Of a DNA stretch of 64,000 bases, positions 10,115 to 52,696 are shown in pieces; positions within the stretch are counted from its first letter, which is position 1, and each line of letters opens with the position of its first letter. The stretch comes from Acidovorax sp. 69 (GTDB taxonomy: Bacteria > Pseudomonadota > Gammaproteobacteria > Burkholderiales > Burkholderiaceae_C): contig NZ_PGEP01000001.1 of the NCBI RefSeq assembly GCF_002797445.1, positions 2,232,501-2,296,500 of the forward strand, written 5' to 3'. The position numbers and the translations under genes are program-made. The notes beneath the pieces are model-generated. The model searched no databases and was not told the origin of the DNA. It saw only the letters and a program-made list of their open reading frames with translations.

Positions 10115-11035
10115 ATGAATCCGATACTTGTCTTCGAGCAACTGCTCAACGGCGCGGGCTATGGCCTCATGCTGTTCCTCATCGCTGCGGGCCTTACGCT
10201 GGTCTTCGGCATCATGGACGTGATGAACCTGTCGCATGGCTCGCTGTTCATGGTGGGGGCCTATGTGGCGGCCACAGTGCATGTGCAAAGCGGCTCGCTG
10301 GCAGGCGCCGTGCTAGTGGCCATTGCGGCCACGATGCTGGTGGCCGTGCTGCTGGAGGTGACGCTGATGCGCCGCCTGTATGGACGTGACCACCTGGCCC
10401 AGGTGCTGGCCACGTTCGGTGTCATTCTGGTGGCCGACGATGCCGTGAAGATGGTGTGGGGCCCGTCCCCCGTGATGGCGCCCACGCCCGCCGCATTGGC
10501 GGGGCCGGTGGAGCTGTTCGCCGGCTTGCCTTATCCCTCGTACCGGTTGGTAGTGCTGGGCGCCGGGGTGCTGGTGGCAGGGCTTTTGTACCTGTTGGTC
10601 AATCACAGCCGCGTGGGCATGCTGGTGCGGGCGGGGGCGTCCGACCGGTGGATGGCCGAGCTGATGGGCGTGCGCGTCAAGCGCGTGTTCAGCGGCATCT
10701 TTCTGCTGGGGGCTGCGCTGGCCGCACTGGCCGGTGCGCTGATGGGGCCCATCATGGCCGTGCAGGTGGGCATGGGTGAATCCATTTTGATCCCTGCGCT
10801 GGTGGTCATTGTCATTGGCGGCATTGGTTCGGTGCGGGGTGCCTTTGTGGCCGCGCTGCTGGTGGGCCTGGTGGACACCATTGGCCGGGCATTCTTGCCG
10901 CTGCTGCTGCGCGCCACACTGCCGCCGGCCGTGGCTGCGGACCTGGGACCGCTGTGCGCCGAAGTGGCCATGTACGCATTGATGGCCGCAGTGCTGTCTT
11001 TCCGCCCTGCGGGGCTGTTTTCTGCCAAGGGCTGA
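10115..11035 (+). CDS. ABC transporter permease, LivH type
   Basis: A 306-residue inner-membrane permease with about eight hydrophobic segments, starting MNPILVFEQLLNGAGYGLML. The family hallmark GLTLVFGIMDVMNLSHGSLF is present early, and the conserved cytoplasmic loop near GVRVKRVFSGIFLLG follows two thirds along. It pairs with the LivM-type permease one base downstream. I chose the ATG at 10115 over an upstream GTG because the hydrophobic start fits the family. Confidence 0.88.
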   Translation: MNPILVFEQLLNGAGYGLMLFLIAAGLTLVFGIMDVMNLSHGSLFMVGAYVAATVHVQSGSLAGAVLVAIAATMLVAVLLEVTLMRRLYGRDHLAQVLATFGVILVADDAVKMVWGPSPVMAPTPAALAGPVELFAGLPYPSYRLVVLGAGVLVAGLLYLLVNHSRVGMLVRAGASDRWMAELMGVRVKRVFSGIFLLGAALAALAGALMGPIMAVQVGMGESILIPALVVIVIGGIGSVRGAFVAALLVGLVDTIGRAFLPLLLRATLPPAVAADLGPLCAEVAMYALMAAVLSFRPAGLFSAKG

Positions 11036-11036
11036 G

Positions 11037-12032
11037 ATGTCTGCCTCCCTGACTTCCACATCTGCCGTACTGCAGCCCGCTGTGGCACCGCGTTGGCGCG
11101 GTGCGTTAGTGCCTCTGTTCCTGCTGGGTGCGCTGGCGCTGTTCCCCCTGGTGGCTGCGGCGCTGGGGCTGGATTTCTACATTGGCTTTGTGCGCCGTGT
11201 GCTGGTGGTGGCACTGGCCGCAGCCAGTCTGAACTTCATCATGGGTTTTGGCGGCATGGTGGCGTTGGGGCATGCCGGTTTTGTGGGCGCAGGGGCCTAT
11301 GCGGTGGTCATGCTTTCAGACGCGGGGGTCACATCGGCCTGGCTGGTGTGGGCTGGGGCCATGGCTCTTGCTGCATTCGCTGCGTTGCTGATCGGCGCGG
11401 TATCGCTGCGCACCAAGGGCGTGTACTTCATCATGATCACGCTGGCTTTTGCGCAGATGCTGTATTACGTGTTTGTGTCGCTGCGCAGCTATGGGGGCGA
11501 TGATGGCTACACGCTGATGATGCGGCCTGGGCTGGGCCTGGGGCTGAACAGTGCTGATGAGTCCCCGCTGTATTGGGTGGTGCTGGCGCTCGTGGCTCTG
11601 GTGCTGTGGTGGCTTGACCGGGCCACGGCCTCGCGGTTTGGTACAGCGCTCGCTGGCATTCGCGACAACGAGTCCCGCATGCGGGCGCTGGGATACCCGG
11701 TGTATCTGCTGCAGCTCACTGCGTTTGTGTTGGCGGGCGCCGTGGCGGGCCTGGCGGGTGCGCTGCTCGCCACAGGCAATAGCTTTGTGAGCCCGTCGAT
11801 GATGCACTGGACGCAATCAGCCACGCTCATCGTGATGGTGGTCATTGGTGGCCTGGGCCGGCGCTGGGGCGGTCCGGTGGGGGCTGCGGTGTGGCTCACG
11901 CTCGAAGAGGTGCTCAAGCTCAACACCGACTACTGGCACATGCCCTTGGGGGCGCTGTTGATAGCCACCGCGCTGTATGCGCCCAAGGGCCTGGCTGCGC
12001 TGGCAGACCTGCGTGCAAGGAGCACCCGATGA
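11037..12032 (+). CDS. ABC transporter permease, LivM type
   Basis: A 331-residue second permease, beginning one base after the LivH-type stop. It has a longer hydrophilic N-terminus, about eight to nine membrane segments, and the family landmarks LNFIMGFGGMVALGHAGFVG and KGVYFIMITLAFAQMLYY. Its stop overlaps the next start (ATGA at 12029-12032), showing tight coupling with the ATPase gene. Confidence 0.88.
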   Translation: MSASLTSTSAVLQPAVAPRWRGALVPLFLLGALALFPLVAAALGLDFYIGFVRRVLVVALAAASLNFIMGFGGMVALGHAGFVGAGAYAVVMLSDAGVTSAWLVWAGAMALAAFAALLIGAVSLRTKGVYFIMITLAFAQMLYYVFVSLRSYGGDDGYTLMMRPGLGLGLNSADESPLYWVVLALVALVLWWLDRATASRFGTALAGIRDNESRMRALGYPVYLLQLTAFVLAGAVAGLAGALLATGNSFVSPSMMHWTQSATLIVMVVIGGLGRRWGGPVGAAVWLTLEEVLKLNTDYWHMPLGALLIATALYAPKGLAALADLRARSTR

Positions 12033-12787
12033 GCCTGTTTCAAGTCGAAGGTCTGGTCAAGCGTTTTGGCGGCCTGCTGGCCACAGACCATGTGAGCCTG
12101 TCGGTGGAGCGGGGAGAGATCCACGCGCTGATTGGCCCCAACGGCGCGGGCAAGACCACGCTGGTCCACCAGATCTCGGGCCTGCTGCAACCCGATGCGG
12201 GGCGTGTGCTGCTTGATGGCGTAGACATCACGCCGCTGCCCATGCACCGCCGTGTGGTGCACGGGCTGTCGCGCTGCTTTCAGGTGACACGCATCTTTCC
12301 TGCGCAGACGGTGCGCGACAACCTGCTGCTGGCCGTGCAGGCGCACAGCGGTTCCAGCTTTCGTTTTTTGCAGCCACGTTCGCAAGCAATTGACCTGTAC
12401 GCCAAGGCAGAACAACTGGCCGAACGCGTGGGGCTGCAACACCGCCTTGCCGACACAGCGGGTGCCTTGCCGCATGGCGCGCAGCGCACGCTGGATGTGG
12501 CGCTGGCACTGGCGGCGGCCCCCAAGTTGCTGCTGCTGGATGAGCCGATGGCTGGCATGGGCCCGGATGAGTCGCAGCAGATGGTGCAGCTCATCGAGGC
12601 CTTGCGCAAGGACATGGCGGTGTTGCTGATCGAGCACGACATGGAGGCAGTGTTCCGCCTGGCCGACCGGATCTCGGTGCTGGTGTATGGCCGTGTTCTC
12701 ACCGCTGGCTCGCCCGACGAGATTCGCAACCACCCCGAGGTGCAGGCGGTGTACCTCGGCACCGAAACGTTGGAGACCACTGCATGA
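12029..12787 (+). CDS. ABC transporter ATP-binding protein, LivG type
   Basis: A 252-residue ATPase. Walker A is GPNGAGKTT at about 36-44, Walker B is LLLLDEPMAGM, and the switch histidine is in LLIEHDMEAVF. The signature motif reads LPHGAQRTLDVALAL, a departure from the usual LSYGEQR, so it is slightly degenerate. It overlaps the LivM-type stop by four bases and its own stop overlaps the next ATPase start (12784-12787). An upstream alternative start inside the permease gene was rejected. Confidence 0.88.
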   Translation: MSLFQVEGLVKRFGGLLATDHVSLSVERGEIHALIGPNGAGKTTLVHQISGLLQPDAGRVLLDGVDITPLPMHRRVVHGLSRCFQVTRIFPAQTVRDNLLLAVQAHSGSSFRFLQPRSQAIDLYAKAEQLAERVGLQHRLADTAGALPHGAQRTLDVALALAAAPKLLLLDEPMAGMGPDESQQMVQLIEALRKDMAVLLIEHDMEAVFRLADRISVLVYGRVLTAGSPDEIRNHPEVQAVYLGTETLETTA

Positions 12788-13502
12788 GCGCGCCAGAGCC
12801 CTTGTTGAGTTGCGAGGCCCTGGAGGCCGGCTACGGCGTGAGCCAGGTGTTGTTCGGCATTGACCTGCAGATCGCGGCAGGCGAAGTGGTCTCGCTGCTC
12901 GGGCGCAACGGCATGGGCAAAAGCACCACCATCAAGACCCTGGTTGGCGCGCTGCGCCCCACAGCCGGTGGCATCCGCTTTGCGGGGGAGGCGACCGGCA
13001 GGCTCAGGTCCGATGCGATTGCCCGCTTGGGCATGGCCATCGTGCCCGAGGGACGCCATGTGTTTCCCAACCTTACCGTGCGCGAGCACCTGGTGGCCTT
13101 TGCCGACCATCGCAATGGCCTGCGCGATGCGTGGGACCTGGAGCGTATCTACGGCGTGTTTCCGCGCCTCAAGGAGCGCCAGAACAACCTGGGCAACCAG
13201 CTCTCGGGGGCGAGCAGCAGATGCTGGCCATTGGCCGCGCGCTGTCCACCAACCCGCGCCTGCTCATTCTGGACGAGGCCACTGAAGGCCTGGCCCCGGT
13301 GATCCGCGAGGAGATCTGGCGCTGCCTGGCCACGCTCAAGGCGGCAGGGCAGACCATTCTGGTGGTGGACAAATACGTGCACCGGCTGGTGGATCTGGCC
13401 GACCGCCATGTGATTCTGGAGCGCGGGCGGGTGGTATGGCAGGGCGACTCTGCCGCGCTCAATGCAGACCGCAGCCTGTGGTCGCGTTACCTCACGGTGT
13501 GA
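12784..13502 (+). pseudogene. ABC transporter ATP-binding protein, LivF type, broken by a one-base frameshift
   Basis: The first frame gives Walker A (GRNGMGKSTT at 40-49) and runs normally to LKERQNNLGNQLSG at about residue 142. It then turns into unrelated sequence and stops at 13302 (172 residues). The remainder of a normal LivF protein continues in the +2 frame from GEQQMLAIGRALS through LILDEATEGLAP (Walker B) to the stop at 13502. One extra G in the G5 run at 13206-13210 would restore LSGGEQQ and a 239-residue protein of normal length. The break falls exactly in the ABC signature motif, so as written the protein cannot work. Either a homopolymer sequencing error or a real inactivating mutation; the rest is well conserved, favouring an error or a very recent change. 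Confidence 0.85.
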
Positions 13503-50298: not shown

Positions 50299-50317
50299 GG
50301 TGTAAATTGCCTACACC
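50299..50317. promoter_or_regulatory. Perfect inverted repeat GGTGTA-N7-TACACC upstream of the barrel/FecR pair
   Basis: GGTGTA (50299-50304), spacer AATTGCC, TACACC (50312-50317), 28 nt before the start of the barrel gene. A TTG and an AT-rich stretch overlap it. It looks like a transcription factor operator on the promoter of the pair; function is inferred. Confidence 0.45.
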
Positions 50318-50345
50318 CGCCAGCGGGTTCCGAGAGGGGGCCGTC

Positions 50346-51677
50346 ATGTACCTGCGAATTTGGTCACAGCGTTTGCTGCCATGGTGCATGGCGCTGGGGG
50401 GTTGCCTGTCTTGTGGCGCATGGGCCGACGATGTGGTGCAGCAAGCGCTCGCTCTGGGTCGCCAGGGGCAGGCGATGCAGGCCTTTCAGTTGCTTGACCC
50501 ACTCGAATCCGAACGGGCGGGAGACCCCGTCTTTGATGCCGCCATGGGCGACGCCGCCCATGCGGCGGGGCAGTACACCCGGGCCATCATGGCGCGCGAG
50601 CGGTTGCTTGCCGCACAGCCCGGCAATCAGCAGGCGCAGGTGGCGCTGGGGCAGTCTCTTCAGGCGGTGGGTGACCGCCGGGGGGTTCTGGCTTTGCCGT
50701 CCGACGTGCAAGCCGCGCTGATCCCCGTGGATGCGGGGCACACACTCGATCAGTTTTTGTATTCGTACGACCGCCAGGAGTATGGCGGTCGCTCTTCGCT
50801 CAAGGGTTACGTGGAGCTGGGTGTGGGGCATGATTCCAACGCCAATGCGGCCCCGGTCGTGGGTGATTTGCAATCACCCGTTCCCGGTACACCGCCGTGG
50901 ACACTGTTGCCCGAGGCGCTGGCGACATCGGGCAACTATGTGGTGGCGCAGGCGGGTTTGCGGGGGCGGGCGGTGCTCAATTCGCGATGGTCTGTGGTGG
51001 GCACTGCCATTGGCGCCACCCGCCACTATGCGGGCCAGGCGGATCGGTTTGATCACACCGCGCTTGATGGCACGCTGGGCATGGCTTGGCGCTCCGAGCG
51101 CCACGAGCTGATTGCGTCGGCCCAGGGCTCTTACTACGCACTGGACGGTGCGCGCCTGCGCACCATGGGGGGTGTGCTGGGAGAGTGGATCTACCGCATG
51201 GACGGGTTCCGCCAGTGGGGCAGTTTTGTGCAGGTGCTGGAGGTTCGATACCCCATGCAGGCCCTGCGCAACGTGCGGCGCAGCGTGGTGGGCACCTCGT
51301 ACTCGCATCTCTTTCGCAATGGGTCTTCGGCTTATGCGGGTCTGTACGGTGGCCGGGAGCAACCCCAGGCGAGTGGCGCAGACCCGCTGGGGCACCGTCT
51401 TTGGGGTCTGCGCGCTGGCGGGCAGTGGCCGCTGGCGCCCCAGTGGGTGGCGTTTGCCAGTGCCGACTGGGAGCACCGACGTTATGGGGGGCAAGACCCA
51501 TTCTTTGCCGTGACACGGTCTGACCGCCAGGCGCAGTTGGCACTGGGACTGAGCTGGACCCCCGCACCGGGCTGGCGTGTGACACCGCAGTGGATGGTGA
51601 CGCGCAATGCCTCCGCGCTGCCGATCACTGACTACGAGCGGCGGGTGTTTTCCATCACCGTGCGCCGGGAGTTCTGA
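50346..51677 (+). CDS. Outer-membrane TPR + beta-barrel protein (Slam/DUF560-like)
   Basis: A 443-residue protein. A signal peptide ends near CGAWADD. About two TPR-like helical repeats follow at 28-130 (QALALGRQGQAMQAFQLL, AAGQYTRAIMARERLLAAQP). The rest is an amphipathic strand-rich domain from about 155 (KGYVELGVGHDSNANAAP) to a terminal phenylalanine (FSITVRREF), the usual end of a BAM-inserted barrel. The TPR-then-barrel order is that of Slam-type surface-protein translocators, but identity to Slam cannot be proved by eye. It lies 47 nt before the FecR-domain gene on the same strand, suggesting they work together. Confidence 0.7.
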   Translation: MYLRIWSQRLLPWCMALGGCLSCGAWADDVVQQALALGRQGQAMQAFQLLDPLESERAGDPVFDAAMGDAAHAAGQYTRAIMARERLLAAQPGNQQAQVALGQSLQAVGDRRGVLALPSDVQAALIPVDAGHTLDQFLYSYDRQEYGGRSSLKGYVELGVGHDSNANAAPVVGDLQSPVPGTPPWTLLPEALATSGNYVVAQAGLRGRAVLNSRWSVVGTAIGATRHYAGQADRFDHTALDGTLGMAWRSERHELIASAQGSYYALDGARLRTMGGVLGEWIYRMDGFRQWGSFVQVLEVRYPMQALRNVRRSVVGTSYSHLFRNGSSAYAGLYGGREQPQASGADPLGHRLWGLRAGGQWPLAPQWVAFASADWEHRRYGGQDPFFAVTRSDRQAQLALGLSWTPAPGWRVTPQWMVTRNASALPITDYERRVFSITVRREF

Positions 51678-51724
51678 ATGCCGCTGCATACCTGGGGTTC
51701 TTCGGCCACACCTTGGAGGTGCCT

Positions 51725-52696
51725 ATGACGTCCGACCAAAAACGCGCGCGGCTGGCGCTGCTGATGGGCATGGTGGCGGCTTGGCCGCTGACGGGATTGG
51801 CTGCGGCCGGGCTGGTTCAGTTCACGGCGGGGGATGTGCAGCTGCGGCGGGGCGAGAGCCTGTCGCGCCTGTCCAAGGGGGCCGCGCTCGATGGTGGGGA
51901 TGTGGTGGTCACGGGCAATGAGGGGCGGGCGCAGATCCGGTTTTCGGATGGGGGCCTGGTGGCCTTGTACCCAGACTCCCAGTTCACCGTGGCCCGCTAT
52001 GCGGATGGTGCTGGCACGGGGGAAGACCATTTTGTGGTCAACCTGCTGCGTGGTGGCATGCGTGCCATCACGGGCCTGATTGGCAAACGCAACCCGGCAA
52101 ACTACCGGGTGGTCACGCCCACCGCAGTGGTTGGAATCCGGGGCTCTGCCTTCTTGCTGGCCATTGATGCCAATGGCCAGGTGTTGGTGTCGGGCGAGCA
52201 GGACGAAATCGAAGTGTGCACACAGGCGGGCTGTGTGGGCGTGACGGCCGGTGAGGCGGTGCTGGTGGTGTCGGACCAGGAGCTGCCGGTGTACACCCAC
52301 ACCCGGGCCTTGCTGCCGGTGCCTGACGTGCAAACACCACTGCTGGCCGGTGACCAGATCGATCGGCAGGGGCGCCGCGCGTTTGTGTACATGATCCCGG
52401 CGCCAGCACCCATCCCGGTGCCACCGCCTGAAGCGGCACCACCGCCAGCACCCGTGCCCGTGGCGCCGCCACCGCCCACTGGTGCGCCCCAGCCCGTAAC
52501 ACCCGCACCGCCTGGGCCCACACCCACTCCCACCACACCGCCGCCGCCCACGCGGCCCACAGCGCCCACGCCACCAACCACGGCGCCTCCGACTACCACA
52601 CCACCGCCGCCAACGGTCAGGCCACCGTTCGTGTTCATCCCGGTGTTGCCGATCATTATTCGGGTGCCTCCACCTCCACCACCTGTGATCCGGTAG
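51725..52696 (+). CDS. Exported FecR-domain protein with proline-rich C-terminal tail
   Basis: A 323-residue protein with a signal peptide to about residue 27 and a FecR-like beta domain at about 30-190 (VQFTAGDVQLRRGESLSRL opening, VVTPTAVVGIRGSAFLL hallmark). A linker follows, then about 95 residues that are nearly half proline with Ala, Thr and Val, ending VPPPPPPVIR. It has no anti-sigma N-terminal region, no internal membrane helix and no lipobox, so it is not a classical FecR signal transducer; it should be periplasmic or surface-exposed. GGAGG stands before the ATG. It is probably a partner or cargo of the upstream barrel protein. Confidence 0.75.
   Translation: MTSDQKRARLALLMGMVAAWPLTGLAAAGLVQFTAGDVQLRRGESLSRLSKGAALDGGDVVVTGNEGRAQIRFSDGGLVALYPDSQFTVARYADGAGTGEDHFVVNLLRGGMRAITGLIGKRNPANYRVVTPTAVVGIRGSAFLLAIDANGQVLVSGEQDEIEVCTQAGCVGVTAGEAVLVVSDQELPVYTHTRALLPVPDVQTPLLAGDQIDRQGRRAFVYMIPAPAPIPVPPPEAAPPPAPVPVAPPPPTGAPQPVTPAPPGPTPTPTTPPPPTRPTAPTPPTTAPPTTTPPPPTVRPPFVFIPVLPIIIRVPPPPPPVIR

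Follow-up and report, generated by a model that had tools for sequence, protein, structure and literature searches.

Introduction

What does an outer-membrane barrel protein do for the exported FecR-domain protein encoded directly behind it, and why does that protein end in a long run of prolines? The question is raised by two genes in a 64,000-nucleotide stretch of the Acidovorax sp. 69 genome (contig NZ_PGEP01000001.1, positions 2,232,501 to 2,296,500; hereafter the window). The barrel gene (50346..51677, + strand, 443 aa) and the FecR gene (51725..52696, + strand, 323 aa) lie on the same strand with a gap of 47 nt, just as the first-pass annotation of this DNA had described them. The pair is far beyond what chance would produce. 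We think it probable that it comprises a type XI secretion system (T11SS) translocon and a dedicated, non-lipidated FecR-type partner or cargo, and that in the Acidovorax clade the usual C-terminal handle of this cargo has given way to a proline tail. We read the pair in this way because of the family to which the barrel is assigned, the depth at which the pairing is conserved, and the handle that occurs at 84 of 130 related loci.

Identity of the barrel protein

The barrel protein begins with a signal-like N-terminus (about 50346-50423) and ends in Phe; we prefer the ATG at 50346 as its start over the in-frame TTG at 50307. Pfam returns only sub-threshold TPR matches for it, and no match to PF04575 (the DUF560 family) was found anywhere in the source genome, the window's copy falling below the Pfam threshold. 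Its relatives are more readily classified. A protein search gave 147 homologues, and among the 120 listed many carry PF04575 and some bear the NCBI names 'surface lipoprotein assembly modifier' or 'DUF560'. Within 200 genomes of the window's taxonomic family, PF04575 scores in 23 (22 over the cut-off) and covers 18 of the 21 places (in 20 genomes) with a strong match (E below 1e-30) to the window's barrel; not covered are the window itself, G141 and G198. Profile-profile comparison was made with an alignment of 57 rows (A2), which includes four barrels lacking a FecR neighbour and homologues of unseen neighbourhood. It matched two PF04575-positive loci (L230 and L232) and a barrel beside a TbpB_B_D protein (L238), all from the same family, at 99.8% and E 2e-27 across both the TPR and the barrel parts. 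Because relatives pass PF04575 or carry these NCBI names, and because of the profile comparison, the window's barrel is assigned by homology to the DUF560/Slam (T11SS) superfamily.

The AlphaFold2 model built from the 57-row alignment (mean pLDDT 85.2, pTM 0.67) predicts TPR-like helices at about residues 30-124 (50433-50717), with helices continuing to about residue 131, followed by 14 strands from residue 151 to 442 with the C-terminal Phe at the end (barrel, residues 151-443, 50796-51674). Aligned with VIA-align, the model ranks CymA and OmpG first, both of which are 14-stranded. The Foldseek matches listed are many outer-membrane barrels, an autotransporter at the top and BcsC and PelBC included; no solved Slam structure stands among the structural matches listed, which carries no evidential weight. 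The 2021 survey of the system describes T11SS proteins as 14-stranded, against 16 strands for PgaA (PMC8406197). The first-pass annotation had proposed a Slam-like plan of TPR followed by barrel, to be abandoned if structure prediction gave no barrel; homology and the predicted strands both favour that plan.

Conservation of the pairing

FecR genes follow this barrel across a broad range of genomes. In the family sample each of the 21 strong places has a FecR gene immediately after the barrel gene. Named records, which span Acidovorax, Simplicispira, Giesbergeria, Ramlibacter, Polaromonas, Xylophilus, Rhodocyclaceae and others, have FecR after the barrel in 50 of 53 loci; of the exceptions, L135 and L182 lie at contig ends and L183 has no FecR. 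At the level of the order, which the named relatives indicate to be Burkholderiales, 134 of 399 genomes contain a match to the barrel profile (E<=1e-10). A same-strand FecR gene was found within 700 nt at 64 of the 68 places examined there (40 chosen down the ranking of a longer list, plus the 28 best returned, L202-L229). The remaining four have FecR about 950 and 730 nt away (L259 and L261), a convergent FecR (L227) or none (L239). The three sets overlap, with some genomes in more than one. The idea of a two-gene unit, which absence of a conserved neighbourhood in relatives would have undone, thus holds in all three.

The barrel of G047 (L233) is also paired with FecR. FecR is missing within 700 nt of a second, more distant barrel at each of L249 and L271, and from the neighbourhood of the weak pairwise relatives L067-L070 of the family sample. 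Four control loci (L230, L231, L232 and L238) contain no open frame with a FecR domain. At the first three of these controls, which are more canonical SlipAM loci from the same family, small exported-looking proteins with FGG-type tails, as in TbpB-type cargo, are encoded just upstream. In G187, a genome of the same genus, a second barrel of the SlipAM type, diverged in sequence, has a FecR gene of its own beside it (L234; 7855-8859 and 8732-10153, - strand). An open frame of 24,372 aa at G109:C185 was rejected because it arises from runs of N, which make up 18,801 of 19,919 bases. Distances among barrels and among FecR proteins are correlated (Mantel r 0.862, 129 loci, 0 of 1000 permutations); we do not take this as proof of contact, because common descent alone explains such a correlation.

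The FecR protein

The FecR gene starts at the ATG at 51725, with GGAGG immediately 5' of it. Its product carries a FecR domain (PF04773, E 1.6e-12; residues 59-153, 51899..52183, + strand) behind an N-terminus that, by eye and by hydropathy, is of the signal peptidase I type and shows no lipobox. Thus, like T11SS cargo, it is encoded beside its barrel and appears to be destined for Sec export. Beyond residue 40 the highest 19-residue Kyte-Doolittle mean is 1.71, and there is no further strongly hydrophobic segment. We found no anti-sigma domain and no clear transmembrane helix in the protein, and no sigma factor gene adjoins it. The first-pass view that this is not a FecIR circuit is therefore upheld, as is its description of the protein as free of anti-sigma region, lipobox and transmembrane helix. 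A pair of Cys residues (165 and 170) lies just after the FecR domain, and the corresponding two Cys are present in every one of the 45 rows of alignment A3.

The domain resembles the cell-surface signalling domain of PupR, and the Pfam scan found no peptidoglycan-binding domain, so that the earlier suggestion of a peptidoglycan-spanning complex finds no support. The FecR region also shows weak likeness to the retention modules of LapA/MpIBP-type adhesins, both to NF033682 (E 3.6e-4, 20.7 bits in the window; at best 8.5e-9, 35.8 bits, in L173; all under the curated cut-off of 50 bits) and to PDB 5ix9 (7.7e-5, below threshold). The C-terminal part of the protein is a proline tail (residues 225-323, 52397..52693, + strand) with 48 Pro in 99 residues, close to the 95 or so residues first estimated. 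It ends in a hydrophobic, proline-containing C-terminus, the last 25 residues being RPPFVFIPVLPIIIRVPPPPPPVIR (52619..52693, + strand).

Handle domains in related FecR partners

Partners were compared at 139 loci, from which L143, L149, L153, L167 and L169 had been dropped as repeat genomes and in which the identical L173 and L210 were both kept; excluding nine loci with no FecR partner in reach leaves 130. At 84 of these the partner ends in a domain like the 8-stranded, barrel-shaped handle that is the presumed recognition element of T11SS cargo (as in TbpB, HpuA, hemophilin and fHbp), and the commonest architecture is a signal peptide, the FecR domain, a linker, in some cases a pedestal, and the 8-stranded handle. 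The TbpB_B_D places used were 15 of 18 from one set and, of four from another, only the two over the cut-off. In 17 FecR partners the Pfam TbpB_B_D cut-off was not reached, and profile comparison did not connect the handle directly with three proteins presumed to be canonical cargo. Only 4 of 200 genomes of the family match PF01298, two of them over the cut-off, and none of these matches lies at a FecR pair.

Two to four copies of the handle are present in 14 of the 84 handle-bearing partners. The partner at L240 (G837), in a frame of 1331 codons, has four handle-like domains, and at L086 (G099) one barrel gene precedes two tandem FecR genes (10131-11543 and 11596-12936), both with handle-like ends by eye. 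The barrel-linked FecR protein at L258 (G849) appears, by eye, to run into TPR-like repeats in place of a handle. Short FecR partners account for 6 of the 130 loci.

A proline tail in place of the handle in the Acidovorax clade

The window's FecR protein has the proline tail where the handle would sit, and in the roughly 120 bp between its stop codon and the next gene we saw by eye no frameshifted remnant of a handle. We scored a partner as having a proline tail if it lacked a handle match and had 15 or more Pro within 60 residues. In a quick IQ-TREE phylogeny of the 139 barrels (SH-aLRT support), 27 proline-tail rows and the contig-end row L135 form one clade with support of 100, nested within a group of 49 rows (support 100) that contains handle bearers. 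The branches that set L157 (partner cut off), L087 and L083 beside the clade have support of 81, 93 and 81. Five further proline-type rows are scattered over the tree.

Selection on the pair was estimated for the window against eight close relatives. The dN/dS ratio lay at 0.08-0.12 in the barrel gene, at 0.05-0.13 in the FecR part of its partner and at 0.06-0.21 in the tail. Both genes are under purifying selection in the Acidovorax clade, the window included. Given the position of the clade and these low ratios, the simplest reading is that a proline tail took the place of the handle once, in the Acidovorax/Simplicispira/Giesbergeria clade, and that the pair remained in use. Among 17 sequences of the clade, likeness is 0.70 in the FecR region, 0.60 in the last 25 residues (gaps 0.19) and 0.48 in the preceding linker (gaps 0.35), identities that low complexity makes rough.

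Genomic context and the upstream repeat

The pair is preceded by an MFS gene and followed, on the opposite strand, by a LOG/lysine-decarboxylase-like gene. The source genome has a single match to the barrel profile and three FecR-domain genes; the two others (G000:C1:1458607-1458909 and 261141-261434, in frames of 745 and 1230 codons) lie away from the barrel.

The inverted repeat GGTGTA-N7-TACACC, to which the first-pass annotation had drawn attention, is real (50299..50317, no strand assigned) and lies 28 nt before the barrel ATG. It is no more than chance would supply, as the window contains 259 inverted repeats with perfect 6-bp arms and a loop of 3-10, 34 of them with a loop of 7. Among nine close relatives the left arm is kept in seven and the exact right arm in none; in L132, which is one of these relatives, most of the stretch is different. 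The repeat also scores as a terminator-like site on the - strand, and the search for a sigma-70-like promoter gave none. We rejected it as a regulator site since it is not conserved in relatives, and with it falls the proposal that the pair is under its own regulator.

Proposed mechanism and alternatives

The FecR protein is most likely the passenger of the barrel, and the earlier idea that the barrel exports it now appears likely, most relatives' FecR partners carrying a handle like that of T11SS cargo. Slam1 is described as a translocon for unfolded TbpB, with help from Skp (PMC9090332), and TbpB reportedly becomes exposed with its C-terminal barrel first (PMC9100927). By analogy, the TPR domain of the window's barrel protein would lie in the periplasm and its 14-stranded barrel within the outer membrane. 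The FecR protein would be exported by Sec and kept unfolded; its C-terminal handle, where there is one, would reach the translocon unfolded and cross first, as with TbpB or hemophilin, and the FecR domain would end on or outside the cell. In the Acidovorax clade the conserved hydrophobic C-terminus of the tail may serve as a new docking or exit element, the tail standing in for the handle. Since no lipobox was seen, the protein would either be set free or be retained by other means. The window's protein is likely a descendant of T11SS cargo that works like one; we do not file it as typical cargo, because the handle is absent and a proline tail takes its place.

A variant of this mechanism, which we consider quite unlikely, builds on the weak similarity between the FecR region and retention modules of the LapA type. 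The passenger would be threaded C-terminus first, and the FecR domain, folding inside and unable to follow through a 14-stranded barrel, would act as a periplasmic retention plug, leaving outside the handle or a polyproline rod of about 95 residues with a conserved tip. If true, this would be a lipid-free means of anchoring the passenger in T11SS, comparable to what the LapA module does in type 1 secretion, and the Acidovorax clade would demonstrate that a short C-terminal signal suffices for T11SS export when the 8-stranded handle is absent.

It is also conceivable, if unlikely, that in the handle-less clade the FecR protein stays in the periplasm, where it would plug or gate the barrel or serve it as an accessory bound to the TPR domain, the proline tail being a spacer. 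The missing handle in the window would fit, as would the continued pairing under purifying selection and the occurrence of short partners; however, the C-terminus of the tail is better conserved than the linker, which suggests a role in docking or exit, and the proline-tail clade sits among handle bearers. We regard as very improbable that the barrel exports a polysaccharide in the manner of PgaA, BcsC, PelB or EpsL, with the FecR protein as an accessory. The C-terminal part of the barrel does have a weak NCBIfam EpsL match (2.8e-5, far below the cut-off), and BcsC and PelBC appear among the structural matches noted above, but 14 strands are predicted where the survey states 16 for PgaA (PMC8406197), no glycosyltransferase or synthase gene adjoins the pair, and relatives' partners carry a handle like that of T11SS cargo. 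Least credible, with hardly any chance of being right, is a FecR-type surface signalling circuit in which the FecR domain acts as a sensor and controls a sigma factor. Such a circuit has an N-terminal anti-sigma domain, one transmembrane helix and a neighbouring ECF sigma gene, all of which we looked for in vain at this locus, and the FecR protein begins with an export signal.

Relation to known systems and significance

The closest known systems are those of T11SS cluster 1 (the Slam1-TbpB, NilB-NilC and hemophilin pairs), with which the pair shares a DUF560 outer-membrane protein of TPR plus 14-stranded barrel encoded beside a Sec-exported cargo, and, in relatives, the C-terminal 8-stranded handle. 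It differs in the N-terminal FecR domain, in the partner gene following the barrel gene, in the lack of a visible lipobox and, in the window, in the proline tail at the place of the handle. Marine cluster 3 systems (PMC12282271) likewise consist of environmental outer-membrane proteins whose neighbours rarely have a recognised TbpBBD and carry another domain family instead; there the partner is DUF1194/vWA-like, whereas here it is FecR, with a diverged handle in 84 of 130 loci. The likeness to the LapA/MpIBP-type module is tempered by the absence of any RTX adhesin or type 1 secretion gene adjoining the pair.

Full-text searches of a literature collection lacking most subscription papers gave, among the papers listed, no link of FecR to type XI secretion, T11SS, DUF560, Slam, NilB or TbpB. 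The 'undescribed system' of the first-pass annotation is thus of a known kind, T11SS; what we did not find in that literature is the FecR cargo class and its handle-less derivative. According to the 2021 survey, nine of ten DUF560 clusters were without a characterised protein and likely to have 'as-yet-unknown cargo' (PMC8406197), and the 2025 cargo study covers clusters 1 and 3 (PMC12282271). As 134 of 399 genomes of the order match the barrel and 64 of 68 places examined are paired with FecR, FecR proteins are specific candidates for the cargo of a large, environmental section of the DUF560 family. The Acidovorax clade offers a natural experiment on whether recognition needs the 8-stranded handle.
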